64,000 bases of DNA from Bradyrhizobium sp. 195 (GTDB lineage: Bacteria > Pseudomonadota > Alphaproteobacteria > Rhizobiales > Xanthobacteraceae). The stretch lies in NCBI RefSeq assembly GCF_023101665.1, contig NZ_CP082161.1, forward strand, positions 6,882,001 through 6,946,000. The letters run 5' to 3'. This document shows positions 11,587 through 26,082 of this stretch, one piece after another. Position 1 is the first letter of the stretch. Every line of letters starts with the position of its first letter. The translations under genes were made by a program, and so were the position numbers. Under the pieces are notes generated by a model. That model made no database searches. It was not told where the DNA came from and saw only the letters and a program-made list of their open reading frames with translations.

Positions 11587-12069
11587 CTACGCGATTGCCA
11601 GAATCTCGATCTCCTGCGCGCCTGAGCCCGCGACATCGCCGACCGCCTTGCCCATCAGCGACGTCGCCACCGGCGCGACGAACGAGATCGTCCCCGCCTT
11701 AGGATCGGCTTCGTCCTCACCAACGATGCGATAGGTCTGCACGCGGCCGTCAGCGCGGCTGAAGGTCACGGTGCTGCCGAAGGCAACGATATCCGTCGAC
11801 GTCGGATCAGGGACGAGCTGCGCGGTGCGCAGGCGTTCCGTCAGATAGCGGGCGTCGCGCAAGGGCACGGCCGATTGCCGGCGCTTTTCGTTGACGTCCT
11901 CGATGGCTTGCGCGGCTTCATAGGCCGCGCGGGCTTCCGCAAGCTGCGTCTGCAACGCCTGCAGGCCTTTTTCCGTCACGAGGTTCGGATGCGGCGAGAT
12001 CGGGCGATCGGGCAACAGCGTCTCGGACGCGGTCTCGGCGCTTTCTTCCTTGGTAAAGGCGACGCTCAA
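11587..12069 (-). CDS. GreA/GreB-family transcription elongation factor
   Basis: 160 residues. The N-terminal part (VTEKGLQALQTQLAEARAAYE onward) forms the antiparallel coiled coil that enters the RNA polymerase secondary channel. The C-terminal domain (VAFGSTVTFSRADG, YRIVGEDEADPKAGTISF, then LMGKAVGDV) is the FKBP-like polymerase-binding fold, including the family signature SxxGxAxxGxxxGD in relaxed form. A 30-residue N-terminal extension is unusual. It is probably a paralogue of the housekeeping GreA. Confidence 0.8.
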   Translation of the reverse strand: MSVAFTKEESAETASETLLPDRPISPHPNLVTEKGLQALQTQLAEARAAYEAAQAIEDVNEKRRQSAVPLRDARYLTERLRTAQLVPDPTSTDIVAFGSTVTFSRADGRVQTYRIVGEDEADPKAGTISFVAPVATSLMGKAVGDVAGSGAQEIEILAIA

Positions 12070-16999: not shown

Positions 17000-17518
17000 C
17001 TACTGCGCGGGGCCGAGCCCGATCTCCGCCAGCCGCGTCGCGAACCAGCGCGACTGCGCCTCATCGACGAGCCCGCTGACATAGACCTCCGACATCGTCA
17101 CCTGGTTCTTGTCCAGCACCAGCAGCACGCCGATCCAGTACGGAAACCAGACATGCACGTCGGTCAGCGCCCGCAGCTTGTGCTGGTCGTGCTCGAGCGG
17201 CGTGTGATTGCTGGCCTTGCGGATCTCGACCGTGAGCAGATTGTTCGGGATCTCGCGCTGATGCACGGCGACGTCAGGATAGATCGACTTTCCCAGATGG
17301 TCGTCGGTCGAGATGATGGTGCCGTGCGGCAGATGCAGCGTGCGCTCGCCGAGCCGATCGTAGTTGCAGTCGACCGACCAGCCGGAGAACTGCTTCTCCA
17401 GATGCACGGCGAAGCGGTGCGTGACCGCGCGCTCGCCGATGTCCTTTTCGAACAGGAAGCCTTCGTGGGCGTAGAAGTCCCGGAGCGCCGCGATCACCTT
17501 GTTCAGCTCGGTCTGCAT
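17000..17518 (-). CDS. Hypothetical protein with a PD-(D/E)XK nuclease-like core
   Basis: 172 residues from the ATG at 17518, preceded by GGAGG; the 32 codons before it lie in an intergenic repeat. An N-terminal acidic helix (GERAVTHRFAVHLEKQF) is followed by YPDVAVHQR (Asp82) and NNLLTVEIRKAS (Glu98), the spacing and context of a PD-(D/E)XK nuclease core (usual form: PDIIVH...LLVIEIKK). The lysine of E-x-K is Arg100 here, with Lys next to it, so activity is uncertain. No methylase or toxin partner is adjacent. Confidence 0.6.
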   Translation of the reverse strand: MQTELNKVIAALRDFYAHEGFLFEKDIGERAVTHRFAVHLEKQFSGWSVDCNYDRLGERTLHLPHGTIISTDDHLGKSIYPDVAVHQREIPNNLLTVEIRKASNHTPLEHDQHKLRALTDVHVWFPYWIGVLLVLDKNQVTMSEVYVSGLVDEAQSRWFATRLAEIGLGPAQ

Positions 17519-19472: not shown

Positions 19473-20051
19473 ATGATCCGGTTTTTTGCCGCGCCGATTG
19501 CCGCCATCGCACTGCTGTCGGCCACGGCGGGTGGCGCGGTCGCCGAAGAGTTCGACTCGCGCGACATCATGGGTGGCGGCCCGAACTTCTTCCGTTCCGG
19601 CGCCAATCCCGTTCCCCGCACCACCGTCATGTATAACGGCAGTTACGCGCCCGGCACGATCGTGGTGAACACCAGCGAACGGCGGCTGTATCTGGTGCTC
19701 CAGAACGGCCAGGCCCTGCGCTACGGCATCGGCGTCGGCCGTGACGGCTTCCGCTGGGGCGGGGTCCACAGGATCACCGCCAAGAAGGAATGGCCGGACT
19801 GGACGCCGCCGTCGCAAATGCTGGCCCGCCGGCCCGACCTGCCGCGCCACATGAAGGGCGGCGTCGACAATCCGCTGGGCGCGCGCGCGATGTATCTGGG
19901 CTCGACCCTCTACCGCATCCACGGCTCCAACGAGCCGGAAACGATCGGCCAGGCGGTCTCCTCGGGCTGCTTCCGCATGACCAATGACGACGTGACGGAC
20001 CTCTATAGTCGCGTCGCAGTCGGTACCACGGTGGTGGTGCTGAACAACTAG
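19473..20051 (+). CDS. L,D-transpeptidase (YkuD domain), periplasmic
   Basis: 192 residues from the ATG at 19473 with GGGGGA upstream. The signal peptide ends at about AVA-EE. The YkuD catalytic domain shows IVVNTSERRLYLVLQNGQ at its start and the active-site block RIHGSNEP...SSGCFRMTNDD, with His150 and nucleophile Cys166. Such enzymes make 3-3 peptidoglycan cross-links or attach proteins to peptidoglycan, both important in rhizobia. The length is typical of short, single-domain family members. Confidence 0.9.
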   Translation: MIRFFAAPIAAIALLSATAGGAVAEEFDSRDIMGGGPNFFRSGANPVPRTTVMYNGSYAPGTIVVNTSERRLYLVLQNGQALRYGIGVGRDGFRWGGVHRITAKKEWPDWTPPSQMLARRPDLPRHMKGGVDNPLGARAMYLGSTLYRIHGSNEPETIGQAVSSGCFRMTNDDVTDLYSRVAVGTTVVVLNN

Positions 20052-20068
20052 ACGCACGCGAGCGTCCA

Positions 20069-20157
20069 TAGGGTAGGCAAAGCGAAGCGTGCCCACCGAT
20101 CGGTGGCTGTTGTCGAGAGATGGTGGGCACGGCGCTTCGCACCTTTGCCAACCCTAC
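20069..20157. repeat. Dispersed palindromic repeat, GTAGGGTGGGCAAAGCG family
   Basis: Left arm TAGGGTAGGCAAAGCGAAGC and right arm GCACCTTTGCCAACCCTAC. Related copies lie at 21068-21157 (variant with GGATGGGTAGAGCGCAG), 44629-44720 and 46733-46824. Confidence 0.8.
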
Positions 20158-20227
20158 GCGGGAACCGCTGGACGCGTGAATTTGCGGACTTGTGTGCGCG
20201 ACGCGAATGCGGCAGCGTCGAGCGACG

Positions 20228-21043
20228 ATGAGCGCACTCCCCTCGCCCGCGCCTGGCCTTCGCATCGCCCTTCTGGCGCTCGCCGCGCTCACATTGGTGC
20301 CTGACACCGCTACCATGGCCGCCGCGGGCGAATTGCCCGCGATCTCCTCGCGTCAGCGCACCGAGAAGAAGAGCTTTACCGACGGCGAGATCGTCGACGG
20401 CTTCCTGAAGACGGCGTTCGGCGCCGAATATCATCTCGCCGGACGCGTCGACCGCATTCGCAAATTCGACGGACCGGTGCGCGTGTTCGCCGAGAGCGAC
20501 CGCACTGACCGCAAGGCGCAGCTCGCAAAGGTCGTGGCCGACATCGGCCGTCGCGTGCAGCATCTCGACATCGCCATGATCGATACCAACGAAGCGGCGA
20601 ATGTGCGCGTGAAGCTGGTGCGCGACCGCGATCTCTTCCGCACCATCTCGAGCTTCTACGGCGCGGAGAAGGCGCGCGAGATCCGCACCTCGCTCGACCC
20701 GCAATGCCTGTCCGGCTTCCGCAAGAACGACAATTTCGAGATCGAGCATTCCGACGTCATCCTCACCGTCGACAACGGCGACTTCACATTCCTCGACTGC
20801 GCCTACGAAGAATTGCTGCAATCGCTTGGGCCCATCAACGACACCGCGAGCGTGCCCTGGACCATGTTCAACGACAATGTCTCGATGGGCTATTTCGACG
20901 TCTACGATCAGTACATCCTCAATCTGCTGTACGATCCCCGCATCAAGGCGGGCATGACCGTGGCCGAGGCGAAGGCGGTGCTGCCCGCCGTACTCGCCGA
21001 CGTGCGCGCGTGGGTGAAGCAGGTGAATGATTTGAAGGAGTGA
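20228..21043 (+). CDS. DUF2927-family secreted protein
   Basis: 271 residues from the ATG at 20228; an in-frame ATG at 20192 would add a basic tail. A hydrophobic signal (LRIALLALAALTLVPDTATM) is followed by the conserved segments KKSFTDGEIVDGFLKTAFG, DIAMIDTNEAANVRVKLV and FLDCAYEELLQSLGPIND, with YDQYILNLLYDPRIKAGMT near the end. These match DUF2927, which has a zinc-protease-like look but no established function. Confidence 0.75.
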   Translation: MSALPSPAPGLRIALLALAALTLVPDTATMAAAGELPAISSRQRTEKKSFTDGEIVDGFLKTAFGAEYHLAGRVDRIRKFDGPVRVFAESDRTDRKAQLAKVVADIGRRVQHLDIAMIDTNEAANVRVKLVRDRDLFRTISSFYGAEKAREIRTSLDPQCLSGFRKNDNFEIEHSDVILTVDNGDFTFLDCAYEELLQSLGPINDTASVPWTMFNDNVSMGYFDVYDQYILNLLYDPRIKAGMTVAEAKAVLPAVLADVRAWVKQVNDLKE

Positions 21044-21067
21044 GGCGATCCTCCAAACGCTGACGTC

Positions 21068-21157
21068 GTAGGATGGGTAGAGCGCAGCGAAACCCATCAA
21101 GCAGCTGCTGCGACAGCCGCGAAGCTGATGGGTTTCGCTGCGCTCTACCCATCCTAC
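21068..21157. repeat. Palindromic repeat, GTAGGATGGGTAGAGCGCAG variant
   Basis: Perfect arms GGATGGGTAGAGCGCAGCGA and TCGCTGCGCTCTACCCATCC flank a short spacer and are able to form a very long hairpin between two convergent genes, so it could serve as a bidirectional terminator. Confidence 0.8.
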
Positions 21158-21162
21158 TGCAC

Positions 21163-22287
<1,125 letters not shown>

Positions 22288-22486
22288 GGGAGTCTCCGGG
22301 GTAGAGCCGATCCGGTCGATATGTCCGAATAATCAGGTTTTATCCAGTCACCTGTTCGGACGGGGAAGGCGCCGCCCGCCCCTTCAAAAATTCGAACAAT
22401 TACATAGATATAGAGAGTGTTTTGGCGTCGTCCGCCGATCGGGGCGGCGGCTGAAACAGGCCTTTGGACCGCCCCGTACGATTAAC

Positions 22487-22612
22487 TTGTCTGTCGTGCG
22501 TTGCCGCTACAATATGTTGGATTGAGCTTGCGTCGCCGGTGTTCCGCGTCGGCAACGCGACCGAGCCAGGCCCGTCCGAGCGGCGGGCCGTTGGCTTTTT
22601 GGGAGTTTGGTC
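22487..22612 (+). promoter_or_regulatory. Candidate attenuator or riboswitch-like leader of the urc genes
   Basis: In the 325-base gap before urc1, a hairpin at 22528-22560 pairs TTGCGTCGCCG with CGGCAACGCGA (10 of 11, one G-T). Its 3' arm could instead pair with GCGTTGCCG at 22498-22506 (9 bp) or form CGCGT/ACGCG locally. An intrinsic-terminator hairpin follows (arms from 22564 and up to 22596: AGCCA-GGCCCG with CGGGCC-TTGGCT), then TTTTT (22596-22600), then the Shine-Dalgarno GGGAG (22601-22605) and the ATG at 22613. A promoter-like TTGTCT/TACAAT pair (22487-22513, 15-base spacing) would start RNA near 22520. The rest of the gap shows no gene. Confidence 0.55.
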
Positions 22613-23869
22613 ATGAGCCGCGCGAACCGTACCGACCACATCCGCCTGACCTCGCATCCGGAGCCGGGCGGCAAGGCCGCCTTCCCGATTCACTGGGGCG
22701 CTACGGATGCGCGCGCACGGGGGCCGATCATCGGCACGGTGTCACGCGCAGGCGATCGCAACGTGATCGGCAGCCATGGCGGGTCCTATGCGATGTACCG
22801 CGCGCTCGCGGTCTCCGCCGGCGCGCTCGATCCGATCCGGCGGCCCGACCTCACCAACACGTTTCCGGCCGCGACCATCGGCCCGTTCGAGCAGTGGCAA
22901 GATCCGGCAAAGATCGTCGCACTCGATCCGTGGGGACATCTCGTCGCCGAGAATTTCGGCAAGGACATTGCGGAGGGCGTCGACATCCGGCCGAGCATCG
23001 CGGTGACGCGGGCGCGGCTCGACCTGCCGGAGATCCGCGAGGCACTCGCTGCAAAGCGGCTGCGCGCCGACGGCGAGGTCGTGCACGCCAATGGCAGCGT
23101 CTCCGTCGTGAAGATCGCGATCGATCCGGTCTGGTACCTGCCCGGCCTTGCGGCGCGCTTCGGCACCGCCGAGACCGAGCTGCGGCGCACGCTGTTCGAG
23201 CAGACCGCCGGCATGTTCCCCGAGCTCGTGACGCGGCCGGACATGAAGGTGTTCCTGCCGCCGATCGGCGGCACCACGGTCTACATGTTCGGCGACGTGA
23301 CAAAACTGCCGGACCATCGCACAAAAATCACCTGCCGCGTGCATGACGAATGCAACGGCTCCGACGTGTTCGGCTCCGACATCTGCACCTGCCGGCCCTA
23401 CCTGATCCACGGCATCGAGGAATCCGCGCGCGGCGCGCAGGAGGGCGGGCTCGGGCTCGTCGTCTATAATCGCAAGGAAGGCCGCGCGCTCGGCGAGGTC
23501 ACCAAATTCCTGGTCTACAACGCGCGCAAGCGCCAGGAGGACGGCGATGCGGCCGCGGCCTATTTCGAACGGACGGAATGCGTCGCCGGCGTGCAGGACG
23601 CGCGCTTCCAGCAATTGATGCCGGATACGATCCACTGGCTCGGCTTGAAGCGCATCGACCGCTTCCTGTCGATGAGCGACATGAAATACGACGCGCTGAC
23701 CTCGCAGGGTATCGACATCGTCGAACGCGTGCCGATCCCGCCGGAGCTGATCCCGGCCGACGCCTATGTCGAGATCGCTGCGAAGAAGGCGGCCGGCTAT
23801 TACTCGTCCGACATCGCGCCCGAGAAGGACGTGGACGGCGTGGTCGGCCGTTCGCTGGAAAAATACTGA
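22613..23869 (+). CDS. urc1: Urc1-type GTP cyclohydrolase II-like protein (uracil catabolism)
   Basis: 418 residues from the ATG at 22613 (GGGAG 7 bases upstream; a TTG two codons earlier is rejected). The C-terminal half is GTP cyclohydrolase II-like: RVHDECNGSDVFGSDICTCR carries the three zinc Cys (247, 258, 260). The N-terminal 200 residues (GTVSRAGDRNVIGSHGGSYAMYRAL) are specific to the Urc1 subgroup. In the URC pathway known from Lachancea kluyveri, Urc1 acts in ring breakdown after uracil has become UMP. The following genes are urc4 and upp, which fixes the assignment over riboflavin synthesis. Confidence 0.85.
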   Translation: MSRANRTDHIRLTSHPEPGGKAAFPIHWGATDARARGPIIGTVSRAGDRNVIGSHGGSYAMYRALAVSAGALDPIRRPDLTNTFPAATIGPFEQWQDPAKIVALDPWGHLVAENFGKDIAEGVDIRPSIAVTRARLDLPEIREALAAKRLRADGEVVHANGSVSVVKIAIDPVWYLPGLAARFGTAETELRRTLFEQTAGMFPELVTRPDMKVFLPPIGGTTVYMFGDVTKLPDHRTKITCRVHDECNGSDVFGSDICTCRPYLIHGIEESARGAQEGGLGLVVYNRKEGRALGEVTKFLVYNARKRQEDGDAAAAYFERTECVAGVQDARFQQLMPDTIHWLGLKRIDRFLSMSDMKYDALTSQGIDIVERVPIPPELIPADAYVEIAAKKAAGYYSSDIAPEKDVDGVVGRSLEKY

Positions 23870-23876
23870 TCGCGCG

Positions 23877-25115
23877 ATGGCGGAGGCTTTGGAACGACAG
23901 GCGCGCGCGCTGCTCAGTGCAGCAGCAGTTCGCGCGCGCGCCGGCGAGATGCTCGATATCGGCCTTGCCGGCGGTTTGAGCCACTTCACTGTTGATCTCG
24001 ACCGCATGGATGGTGTCGCGGAGGCGGTGCTCGCGGTCACGCGAAAGGCCTATCCGGCGCTGGACGTGCCGTTCCACGCGCGGTGGCGGCATTTTGTGAT
24101 TGAGGGCGTCGACCGCTGGGCGGACCTTGCGAATGTGGCCTCGTGGCCGGATCGCGCGGCGCGGGCGCGGGCCGAGTTCGATCTCGCCATCGTCAGCGTG
24201 CTGCTCGATGCCGGCGCGGGTGCGGCGTGGCGATATCGCGACGCGATCAGCGGCAAAAGCATCGGCCGGTCCGAGGGGCTCGCGATCGCCAGCCTCGACA
24301 TGTTCGCGAACGGTCTTTTTTCGCGCGATGCCGGCTCGCCCTTGAGGGCCGATGCAGATGTGCTCGCTCAACTGCCGCTCGCCGGGCTTACGGCGGCGTT
24401 TCAGGTGAGCGCGGCCAATCCGCTGCTCGGGCTCGAAGGGCGAACCGATCTGCTGCAGCGCCTGGGCAGGCTGGTGGCGGAGCGCGCGGACGTGTTCGGC
24501 CTGCATGACACGCCACGGCCGGGCGGCCTGTTCGATCACATCGCCGCGCAAGCCGTCGGCGGCACTGTCGCTGCGCCCGCCATTCTGTCGGGGGTGCTGA
24601 ACCAGCTTGGGCCGATCTGGCCGTCGCGGCTGGAGGTCGCTGGCGTTCCGCTCGGCGATTGCTGGCGCCACCCCGCCATCAAGGCCAATGATGCGACCGC
24701 AGGCCTCGTGCCCCTGCACAAGCTGTCGCAATGGCTGAGCTATTCGCTGATCGAACCGCTGCAGCGCGCCGGGTTCAATGTCATCGATATCGACGGGCTG
24801 ACGGGGCTTGCCGAATACCGCAATGGCGGCCTGTTCGTTGATCACGAGGTGCTGCGGCTGCGCGATCCCACCGATGCCGCGCGCGCGCATGCGGTGGATT
24901 CGCTGCTCGTCGTGGAATGGCGCGCGCTGACTGTGGCGCTGCTCGATCGGTTAGCTGAACTCGTTCGCGCAAAACTCGGGCGCACGCGCGAGACATTGCC
25001 GCTCGCCAGCATCCTCGAAGGCGGTACCTGGGCCGCCGGCCGCAGCATTGCCTTTTCACGCCGTCCCGACGGTTCGCCGCCGCTCAAGGTGATCAGCGAC
25101 GGCACGGTGTTTTAA
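23877..25115 (+). CDS. urc4: Urc4-type DUF1688 protein (uracil catabolism)
   Basis: 412 residues from the ATG at 23877, 8 bases after the urc1 stop. Conserved DUF1688-style stretches include HFTVDLDRMDGVAEAVL, VPFHARWRHFVIEGVDRW, RSEGLAIASLDMF, CWRHPAIKANDATAGLVPLH, KLSQWLSYSLIEPLQRAG and EYRNGGLFVD. DUF1688 equals Urc4/Urg3, an enzyme of unknown mechanism required in the URC route for uracil degradation. Translational coupling with urc1 is likely. Confidence 0.85.
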   Translation: MAEALERQARALLSAAAVRARAGEMLDIGLAGGLSHFTVDLDRMDGVAEAVLAVTRKAYPALDVPFHARWRHFVIEGVDRWADLANVASWPDRAARARAEFDLAIVSVLLDAGAGAAWRYRDAISGKSIGRSEGLAIASLDMFANGLFSRDAGSPLRADADVLAQLPLAGLTAAFQVSAANPLLGLEGRTDLLQRLGRLVAERADVFGLHDTPRPGGLFDHIAAQAVGGTVAAPAILSGVLNQLGPIWPSRLEVAGVPLGDCWRHPAIKANDATAGLVPLHKLSQWLSYSLIEPLQRAGFNVIDIDGLTGLAEYRNGGLFVDHEVLRLRDPTDAARAHAVDSLLVVEWRALTVALLDRLAELVRAKLGRTRETLPLASILEGGTWAAGRSIAFSRRPDGSPPLKVISDGTVF

Positions 25116-25260
25116 CCCTCTCCCCTTGTGGGAGAGGGTGGCTTCGCGAAAGCGAAGCCGGGTGAGGGGTCTGTCTCCGCGGGCACTTCTCTCAATGAAC
25201 TTCGCGGAGAGAACCCCTCATCCGGCGCTTCGCGCCACCTTCTCCCACAAGGGGAGAAGG
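25116..25260. repeat. Dispersed repeat, CCTCTCCCCTTGTGGGAGAG family
   Basis: Short palindromes ending in TTCTCCCACAAGGGGAGAAG fill the gap between urc4 and upp. Related elements are at 25962-26082 and 48685-48828. The transcribed hairpins could affect upp expression within the operon. Confidence 0.75.
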
Positions 25261-25277
25261 AAGAAAGGCATCTCATC

Positions 25278-25907
25278 ATGCAAGGCGTCACGATCGTCGA
25301 TCATCCGCTGGTGCAGCACAAGCTGACGCTGGTGCGGGACAAATCCATCTCGACAAAATCGTTCAGGGAGCTGATCAAGGAGATCGGCATGCTCCTGTGC
25401 TACGAGGTGACGCGCGATTTGCCGCTCGCGGACACCGTGATCGAGACGCCGCTGGCGACGATGCACTCGGCCAAGATCGCCGGCAAGAAGCTGGTGTTCG
25501 TGCCGATGCTGCGCGCCGGTACCACCTTCGTCGACGGCATGATGGACCTGGTGCCGACCGCGCGCGTCGCCCATATCGGGCTCTATCGCGAGCCGCACAG
25601 CTTTGCGGCGGTCGAATATTTCTTCAAATCGCCGTCCGATCTCAGCGAGCGCCTCGCGATCGTGGTGACACCGGTGGTCGCCACCGCCAACACGGCGGTC
25701 GCCGCCATCGACCGCCTGAAGGAGCGCGGCGCCAGGGACATCCGCCTCGCCTGCCTGATCGCCGCTCCGGAAGGACTCGAGCGGCTGCGCGGCTTGCATC
25801 CGGATGTTCCGATCTGGACCGCGGCAGTGGACGAGGGCCTCGACGAGAACGGCTTCATCCTGCCGGGCCTCGGCGACGCCGGCGACCGCGCCTACGGGAC
25901 GCGGTAG
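25278..25907 (+). CDS. upp: Uracil phosphoribosyltransferase-like protein, divergent
   Basis: 209 residues from the ATG at 25278. The frame and C-terminal signature [20 protein letters not shown] are those of uracil phosphoribosyltransferase, which makes UMP from uracil and PRPP, the first step of the URC pathway (Fur1). The PRPP loop is abnormal: [17 protein letters not shown] replaces the usual (V/L)DPMLATGGS.., so the key Asp and the Gly-Gly are lost, and RAGTTFVDG replaces RAGLGM.DG. It follows urc4 after a repeat. It may be a pathway-specific paralogue. Confidence 0.8.
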
Positions 25908-25961
25908 GCACGCTCTAAAGCGAAATCGCTTCAGGTTGAATCAAGTAACCGCGGGCTCGGT

Positions 25962-26082
25962 CACCTCTCCCGCTTGCGGGAGAGGTCGGCGCACAGCGCC
26001 GGGTGAGGGTTCTTTCCTCTGGGGGAGTGTCCCATTGCGGAAGCACCCCACCCCAGCCCACCCCCGCAAGCAGGAGAGGGGG
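25962..26082. repeat. Dispersed repeat, CACCTCTCCCGCTTGCGGG family
   Basis: Inverted CCTCTCCCGCTTGCGGGAGA and CCCCCGCAAGCAGGAGAGG units lie between the convergent upp and protease genes and may end both transcripts. Confidence 0.7.

Follow-up and report, generated by a model that had tools for sequence, protein, structure and literature searches.

A hairpin and T-run kept with urc1 in Bradyrhizobium and related genera: a candidate attenuator of the uracil degradation operon

Introduction

What decides whether Bradyrhizobium transcribes its genes for uracil degradation? The leader ahead of urc1 in Bradyrhizobium sp. 195 raises this question in a compact form: a first-pass annotation of the window (the whole 64,000-nucleotide stretch of DNA analysed here) had proposed that it holds a terminator-bearing riboswitch or attenuator. 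Among the matches listed in a search of titles and beginnings of abstracts in the open-licence literature, no paper dealt with the control of the bacterial URC route, none had the urc leader as its topic, and those that joined uracil with URC1 and URC4 concerned yeasts. The words "uracil" and "cyclohydrolase" were absent from the main texts of PMC4842269 and PMC5082802. A hairpin that is kept letter for letter at urc1 amid changing surroundings offers a clear and cheap test of such control.

Results

The urc genes and their neighbours

Pfam and NCBIfam domains define the gene order urc1-urc4-upp on the plus strand (Table 1); the labels urc1 and urc4 were taken over from the first-pass annotation, and the domains found agree with them. 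Judged by urc1, the nearest relatives of the window are Bradyrhizobium genomes. The translation of the frame at 25128-25277, ahead of upp, was inspected and resembles what we take to be rhizobial intergenic repeats, so upp probably starts at 25278, behind an inserted repeat.

Table 1. Position and strand of the features of the urc locus in the window
Feature	Position	Strand	Basis or remark
Divergent pyridoxal-phosphate enzyme, threonine synthase-like	21163..22287	-	Pfam; NCBIfam below cut-off
-35 block, contains ATTAACTTGTCTGT	22479..22494	+	TTG-N18-TACA with the -10 box
-10 box TACAAT	22508..22513	+	predicted RNA start near 22520
First hairpin (P1)	22528..22560	+	fold; specific to the close Bradyrhizobium clade
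Terminator-like hairpin	22563..22597	+	8-bp core and 6-bp lower stem
T-run TTTTT	22596..22600	+	end 11 nt beyond the core stem, then G
Shine-Dalgarno-like GGGAG	22601..22605	+	sequence; ATG at 22613
urc1	22613..23869	+	GTP cyclohydrolase II-like; Pfam GTP_CH_N and GTP_cyclohydro2; NCBIfam PRK07198
urc4 (DUF1688)	23877..25115	+	Pfam PF07958 (query from 23907); start codon tentative
upp, uracil phosphoribosyltransferase	25278..25907	+	Pfam, NCBIfam

The threonine synthase-like gene (21163..22287) lies outside the urc system. Because the DNA is GC-rich, the orientation of the longest open frames was ambiguous, and neighbour orientation was therefore taken from tblastn searches of 80 + 91 loci, for which the neighbour protein was the query, and from the translations of 12 loci. 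The neighbour was adjacent and divergent in 74 of the 80 relatives L001-L080 and was found upstream of urc1 in none of the 91 other loci; in the 12 of these 91 whose frames were read, the upstream gene varied and stood in either orientation, with the hairpin still at urc1. Since the neighbours vary while the hairpin stays with urc1, we regard the hairpin as part of the urc transcript. The divergent neighbour of the first-pass annotation is thus borne out by the domain searches and by most relatives, and its claim that the terminator acts on the urc transcript gains from the same pattern.

Other kinds of upstream gene were also seen. In L225 a divergent frame on the minus strand looks by eye like a cytosine deaminase in its translation, which would suit a pyrimidine-breakdown cluster. 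In L183, L192 and L196 a frame whose translation resembles a LysR-type regulator runs toward urc1 and stops about 117-186 nt before the hairpin, and is a candidate regulator of the urc operon in those genera.

Promoter-like boxes and the predicted RNA start

The TACAAT that had been reported at 22508 is present, and the -35/-10 pair of which it is part resembles the TTG-N16-18-TATA promoter type of B. japonicum, as given in PMC4842269. Across 74 close relatives, mean identity to the window was 98.9% in the -35 block (22479-22494) and 96.4% in the -10 block (22504-22522), and 0.523 in the promoter spacer. A simple consensus scan for sigma-70 promoter-like sites returned 0 in 20000-26000 (shuffles, 0.6 ± 0.7), so the urc pair fails that particular consensus. 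In the close loci (n = 79), 80 -10-like boxes were located 41-80 nt before the hairpin; in the other loci (n = 67) 55 were located at 21-80 nt, compared with about 6.9 in shuffles. As a conserved promoter-like pair precedes the hairpin, RNA would be expected to start near 22520.

The terminator-like hairpin and its T-run

In the fold of the predicted transcript (22520-22600), the core stem pairs 22569-22576 with 22582-22589 around a 5-nt loop (22577-22581), and a 2-nt bulge separates it from a lower stem that pairs 22563-22568 with 22592-22597. The first-pass annotation had described an 11-bp stem with a small bulge; a hairpin ending on the T-run is indeed what the fold returns, but with 14 pairs, not 11. 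The TTTTT, GGGAG and urc1 ATG that it had listed are all present in the sequence.

When all runs of at least four T on both strands of the whole 64 kb were ranked by the stability of the adjoining hairpin, the run at 22596-22600 came second of 137 (-20.6 kcal/mol), between -21.8 kcal/mol at 17445 and, just behind it, -20.5 at 11968; the hairpins at these two other sites cross long open frames on the minus strand (mechanical ORFs). Given its composition, the complete leader has no unusual stability (z -0.57), and a simple consensus scan found no excess of terminator-like sites in 20000-26000, with 5 sites, four of them overlapping calls of the urc hairpin, compared with 3.8 ± 1.8 in shuffles. 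For the lower stem, the mean over 146 loci was -23.1 kcal/mol versus -21.8 with shuffled flanks, a median of 0.295 of shuffles being equally stable; with L001-L080 left out the median was 0.30, and p<0.05 was reached in 8/68 loci. The lower stem thus gains hardly anything over shuffled flanks. In its own genome the urc1 leader is the sole exact match to the 16 stem letters. A loose pattern with up to two mismatches gave 22 matches there and its reversed control 42, and the loose matches were accordingly taken as background.

The spacing of the T-run is regular. Among the 146 unique loci that carry the hairpin, the distance from the core to the end of the T-run is 11 nt in 121 and 10-13 nt in 142; the run is short (3-5 T in 143), mostly followed by G, the next base being G in 119, A in 21 and C in 6. 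The lengths of spacer and T-run compensate each other, at 6+5 in 72 of 79 close loci and 7+4 in 34 of 67 others, so that the 11-nt end point is maintained. In 130/146 unique loci the predicted pairing leaves no more than 2 nt before the T-run. With L001-L080 left out and the window included, it does so in 52/68 and stops more than 2 nt short in the remaining 16/68, where a pause geometry therefore suits better than a textbook terminator.

Conservation among close relatives

Over the same 74 close relatives, mean identity to the window was 98.7% for hairpin and T-run, 77% (0.771) for the fourfold sites of urc1, 0.757 for the first hairpin (22528-22560) and 37% (0.370) for 22453-22477, further upstream. 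By this sequence comparison the letters of the hairpin are under strong constraint, far above fourfold sites. One stem pair varies, and only among U-G, C-G and U-A (37, 6 and 2 of 45), in alignment A3 (45 rows), which was picked by motif regex and then thinned, so that the selection itself accounts for part of the stem invariance in it. Because the stem hardly varies, covariation cannot prove the terminator hairpin, and the 45 rows of A3 yielded none from it. One record among the relatives, L063 (JAUEPE010000037.1), is titled Frankia sp. RB7 and carries the same leader with a 95% identical, Bradyrhizobium-type urc1; it is probably mislabelled or a contaminated assembly.

The first hairpin and alternative pairings

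P1 folds with exactly the bounds, 22528-22560, that the first-pass annotation had assigned to an upstream hairpin. From 111 leaders, 96 unique ones were obtained, alignments A1 (33 rows) and A2 (42 rows) being hand-picked subsets. In 42 of the 96 leaders 19 double-sided changes were counted, all of them in P1, compared with 3.8 ± 2.6 in shuffles, which ignore relatedness; of the 91 leaders tested out of 96, 59 had a P1 of greater stability than shuffles (p<0.05). The window's own P1 is no more stable than expected from shuffles (0.24 of them equally stable), and outside the clade P1 exceeded shuffles in 6/72 only, a set that includes five of L075-L080. Conservation and covariation of both hairpins had been named as the check on a switch: the terminator is kept near letter for letter, and P1 covaries, but as a clade-specific element.

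The alternative 9-bp pairing that had been proposed, 22498-22506 with 22550-22558, is indeed 9/9 in the window, but complete in only 1/96 aligned leaders. Its 5' arm sits between the -35 and -10 boxes, in keeping with the earlier caveat that a start at about 22520 would remove the 22498 arm. With one arm within the promoter and a single complete instance, the pairing was rejected as a switch. The proposed CGCGT/ACGCG stem falls within the variable part of P1.

Bases ahead of the ATG offer other partners. The RNA 5' end can form 8/8 pairs with them in 15/91 leaders, 6-7 in 54 and 1-2 in 22, and the hairpin 5' arm can form 6/6 in 89/96 close-clade leaders. The latter pairing exceeds shuffles in 41/79 close leaders and 8/60 others (139 of 146 loci kept), and in the window it does not (0.16). 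Among the pairings tested there was thus no conserved competing antiterminator, the 9-bp pairing being complete in 1/96 and the pairing of 5' arm with pre-ATG bases confined to the close clade.

Reach of the motif in more distant genera

The comparison was extended by 91 further urc1 upstream regions, 72 from one urc1 list and 19 from another, the low-identity end of the first list being thinly sampled (four loci at 63-64%). The motif, GG[CT][CT]CG[CT][CT]-loop-[GA][GA]CGGGC[CT] within 190 nt of the start, was present in 149 of 172 upstream regions (the window, L001-L080 and L153-L243, duplicates kept; L238 repeats L075), leaving 146 unique loci. It occurred in the window, in all of L001-L080 and in 68 of the 74 loci whose URC1 is 74-92% identical, and was absent from all 17 sampled loci at 63-70%. 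Loci without it were L164, L186, L198, L200, L204, L206 and L208-L224, of which L186 and L200 miss it by one or two letters.

Across genera the consensus before urc1 reads GGCCCGTC-loop-GGCGGGCC-GTyGsC-nTTTT-rGG, with the leader's 5' portion scrambled in the more distant ones. For 40 non-redundant distant loci, the mean top-base frequency from -40 to -9 was 0.38. At the 3' positions after the stem, which played no part in choosing these loci, the frequencies were 0.90 for T at +2, 0.82 for G at +4 and 0.88 for C at +6, and T held +8 to +11 with a mean of 0.92.

A strict form of the motif was found in 29 of 248 family genomes, a single time in each, and every site lay immediately ahead of urc1 in the same orientation, at 16-132 nt by comparison of coordinates; urc1 itself was present in 102 of the 248, and the reversed strict pattern gave 0 matches in all of them. 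The covariance model R1, which was built on an odd RNAalifold structure, matched in 163/248 family genomes at E<=0.05, many of the matches lying away from urc1 and being taken as background. In the order sample urc1 was present in 67/297 genomes and the covariance model R2 matched in 90/297 at E<=0.001; outside the family, 23 order-sample genomes had both urc1 and an R2 match, and by the listed coordinates none of these matches lay at urc1.

Other hairpins occur in the same place. In L210-L212 and L216-L220, more distant members of the same family, a terminator-like hairpin of different spelling, GAAGC...GGCTTTTTGCTTT followed by GTGGGGCAA, lies in the last 70 nt before urc1, in leaders that are alike among themselves. 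Three of 30 outgroup loci from outside the family (L275, L277, L280) have a GC-rich hairpin, GGCCCTCCG...GGGGCCGTrTCCGTTCC, before urc1, with no T-run at it. Given these other spellings, a hairpin in front of urc1 may predate the spelling seen in the window. In L208 and L213 a palindromic repeat-like insert, CCCGAAAAGTGG...CCGGTTTTCGG, separates a T-rich leader piece from urc1.

Discussion

A candidate pause-terminator gate

Taken together, the sequence evidence leads us to read hairpin and T-run as a compact attenuator or pause-terminator of the urc1-urc4-upp operon, with a probability of roughly 0.6. The promoter-like boxes, the hairpin and the T-run stand in the order expected of an attenuator, such that promoter, terminator hairpin with T-run and downstream gene would share one transcript, and they are conserved together with urc1. 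The geometry also provides what a hairpin-stabilised pause calls for, namely 10-13 nt between the hairpin and a pyrimidine 3' end, and G as the next base. Because this pause geometry is joined by terminator geometry when the lower stem forms, a pause-terminator gate is the reading that we favour. Against it, the motif is lacking in 6/74 loci at 74-92% URC1 identity and in 17/17 at 63-70%, and none of the R2 matches in urc1-bearing genomes outside the family is at urc1. The shortness of the T-run, the small gain of the lower stem over shuffled flanks and the lack of covariation in the invariant stem also count against it.

According to this model, RNA polymerase would start near 22520 at the conserved promoter-like boxes and make about 45 nt of RNA before the near-invariant hairpin folds. 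It would then reach the T-run just ahead of the ribosome-binding site, where it would pause and in part terminate, and a regulated fraction would stop there. Given such a partial stop, mRNA for uracil degradation would arise from read-through alone. Because the upstream letters are unconserved between genera and the stem is kept letter for letter, we place the decision at the hairpin and the paused polymerase. We tentatively assign it, as the most likely case, to a factor that acts in trans and recognises the invariant stem; that nucleotide supply at the T-run takes it instead seems unlikely. A more specific version, to which we likewise give a low probability, is a sensorless 35-nt module for sequence-specific pausing and termination, which would on its own couple uracil degradation to the cell and in which either an RNA-binding protein reads the GGCCCGUC/GGCGGGCC stem or UTP sets escape from the T-run. 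The protein would be one dedicated to this stem, perhaps a urc enzyme, and in the UTP variant high UTP would open the operon for uracil destruction. Should a factor read the stem, this would be a new RNA-based control of pyrimidine metabolism; should UTP act alone, the element would amount to a very simple metabolite gate.

Alternative explanations

It is rather unlikely that the hairpin instead works on the finished mRNA, through stability or translation, with the T-run incidental or a site for an RNA-binding protein. The hairpin does adjoin the ribosome-binding site in the window, its core ends at most 30 nt from the start in 127/146 unique loci, and close-clade leaders allow the 5' arm to pair with pre-ATG bases, as counted above (6/6 in 89/96; above shuffles in 41/79). 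However, the core ends more than 60 nt, and up to 137 nt, before the start in 8/146 loci, that pairing exceeds shuffles in just 8/60 leaders from other clades and does not do so in the window (0.16), and a fixed T-run spacing would be unexpected.

That the hairpin is an insulator which terminates transcripts of the upstream gene is improbable. By eye on the translations, the upstream gene does read toward urc1 in some genera, being LysR-like in L183, L192 and L196 and urocanase-like in L174 and L241, but in the window and in 74/80 relatives the neighbour is divergent, and promoter-like boxes precede the hairpin.

A DNA operator, the inverted repeat GGCCCG...CGGGCC being bound by a repressor dimer, has the near-invariance of the repeat in its favour and is nevertheless very improbable. 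The spacing of the arms varies (loop of 5, 6 or 8), most loci retain the palindrome's T/G mismatch, which in RNA is a U-G pair, the T-run is conserved on the 3' side only, and the distance to the -10-like boxes is variable. The variable loop, the pair that alternates between U-G, C-G and U-A and the one-sided T-run fit an RNA hairpin and do not fit a dimer operator.

For a metabolite-binding riboswitch, in which the leader would supply the aptamer and the hairpin would be the terminator, we see hardly any room. The close clade does have promoter, P1 and terminator in its leader, with covariation in P1. Yet the window has just ~45 nt ahead of the terminator, outside the clade P1 shows no advantage over shuffles (6/72), the upstream letters are near random between genera, the alternative pairing is unconserved, and 22400-22700 has no Rfam match at E<=5; no aptamer with conserved letters and covarying stems was found across genera. 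With no conserved sensor part beside the hairpin, the element looks, on sequence grounds, like a simple gate and not a riboswitch. Of the proposal "riboswitch or attenuator", it is thus the second half that is supported, by the promoter-like boxes, the hairpin with its T-run and their conservation before urc1, while the first half lacks support, given the unconserved pre-hairpin stretch and alternative pairing and the missing Rfam match.

Leader-peptide attenuation by a short ORF translated across the hairpin is scarcely credible: an ATG ORF crosses it in 26/67 other and 21/79 close loci, but loop length shifts the frame, no frame is favoured (open in 75, 75 and 48 of 79 close and 25, 29 and 33 of 67 other loci) and the window has no ATG between 22520 and 22612, so it was rejected for want of a conserved short ORF. 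Equally hard to credit is that the product would be a small RNA acting in trans, ~80 nt long and with its end at the T-run. The unit of promoter and terminator is in its favour, but the 5' part holds no seed that is shared between genera, there is no Rfam match, and the strict motif lies always at urc1.

Comparison with known systems

Rfam 15 (4227 families) includes leader RNA elements of comparable size, but at E<=5 none matched 22400-22700, and at gathering score the whole window gave one tRNA and nothing else. Leader terminators of pyrimidine operons are known from pyrBI of E. coli and in the PyrR-controlled pyr leaders of Bacillus. The urc leader is like them in having a hairpin and T-run between the promoter and the first gene of a pyrimidine operon; it differs in that the operon is one of degradation, and in having no conserved leader peptide, conserved antiterminator or Rfam match. 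The two parts of a PyrR attenuator, the protein and its binding loop in the leader, were not found: the best match to NF003549, the one model searched, in the own genome scored 21 bits against a cut-off of 138 bits, and the leader matched no Rfam family. A PyrR-like factor, one of the candidates named in the first-pass annotation, is therefore unlikely.

Closer in taxonomy is the NasT/ANTAR antitermination system of Bradyrhizobium diazoefficiens (PMC6759348), which shares with urc the genus, nitrogen-related genes and a terminator in the 5' leader; the word "uracil" did not appear in the main text of that paper. The own genome encodes one ANTAR protein (74 bits). In ANTAR sites two hairpins form a pair, each with a six-base loop whose first base is A. 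The urc loop, by comparison, has 5 nt in 79/79 close and 36/67 other loci and 6 nt in 30/67, none of these 30 six-base loops starts with A, and there was no second conserved hairpin outside the clade, which sets the element apart from an ANTAR leader.

Hairpin-stabilised pauses are, in all cases known to us, accessory to another switch. In the hairpin-stabilised and NusA/NusG-dependent pauses described in PMC12288461, the hairpin lies 10-13 nt before the RNA 3' end with a T-rich tract, and the urc element is alike in that its T-run ends 11 nt past the core (121/146), with G or A as the next base in 140. It differs from the known pauses in that the hairpin and its T-run are the only conserved element, and in that the very letters of the stem are conserved too.
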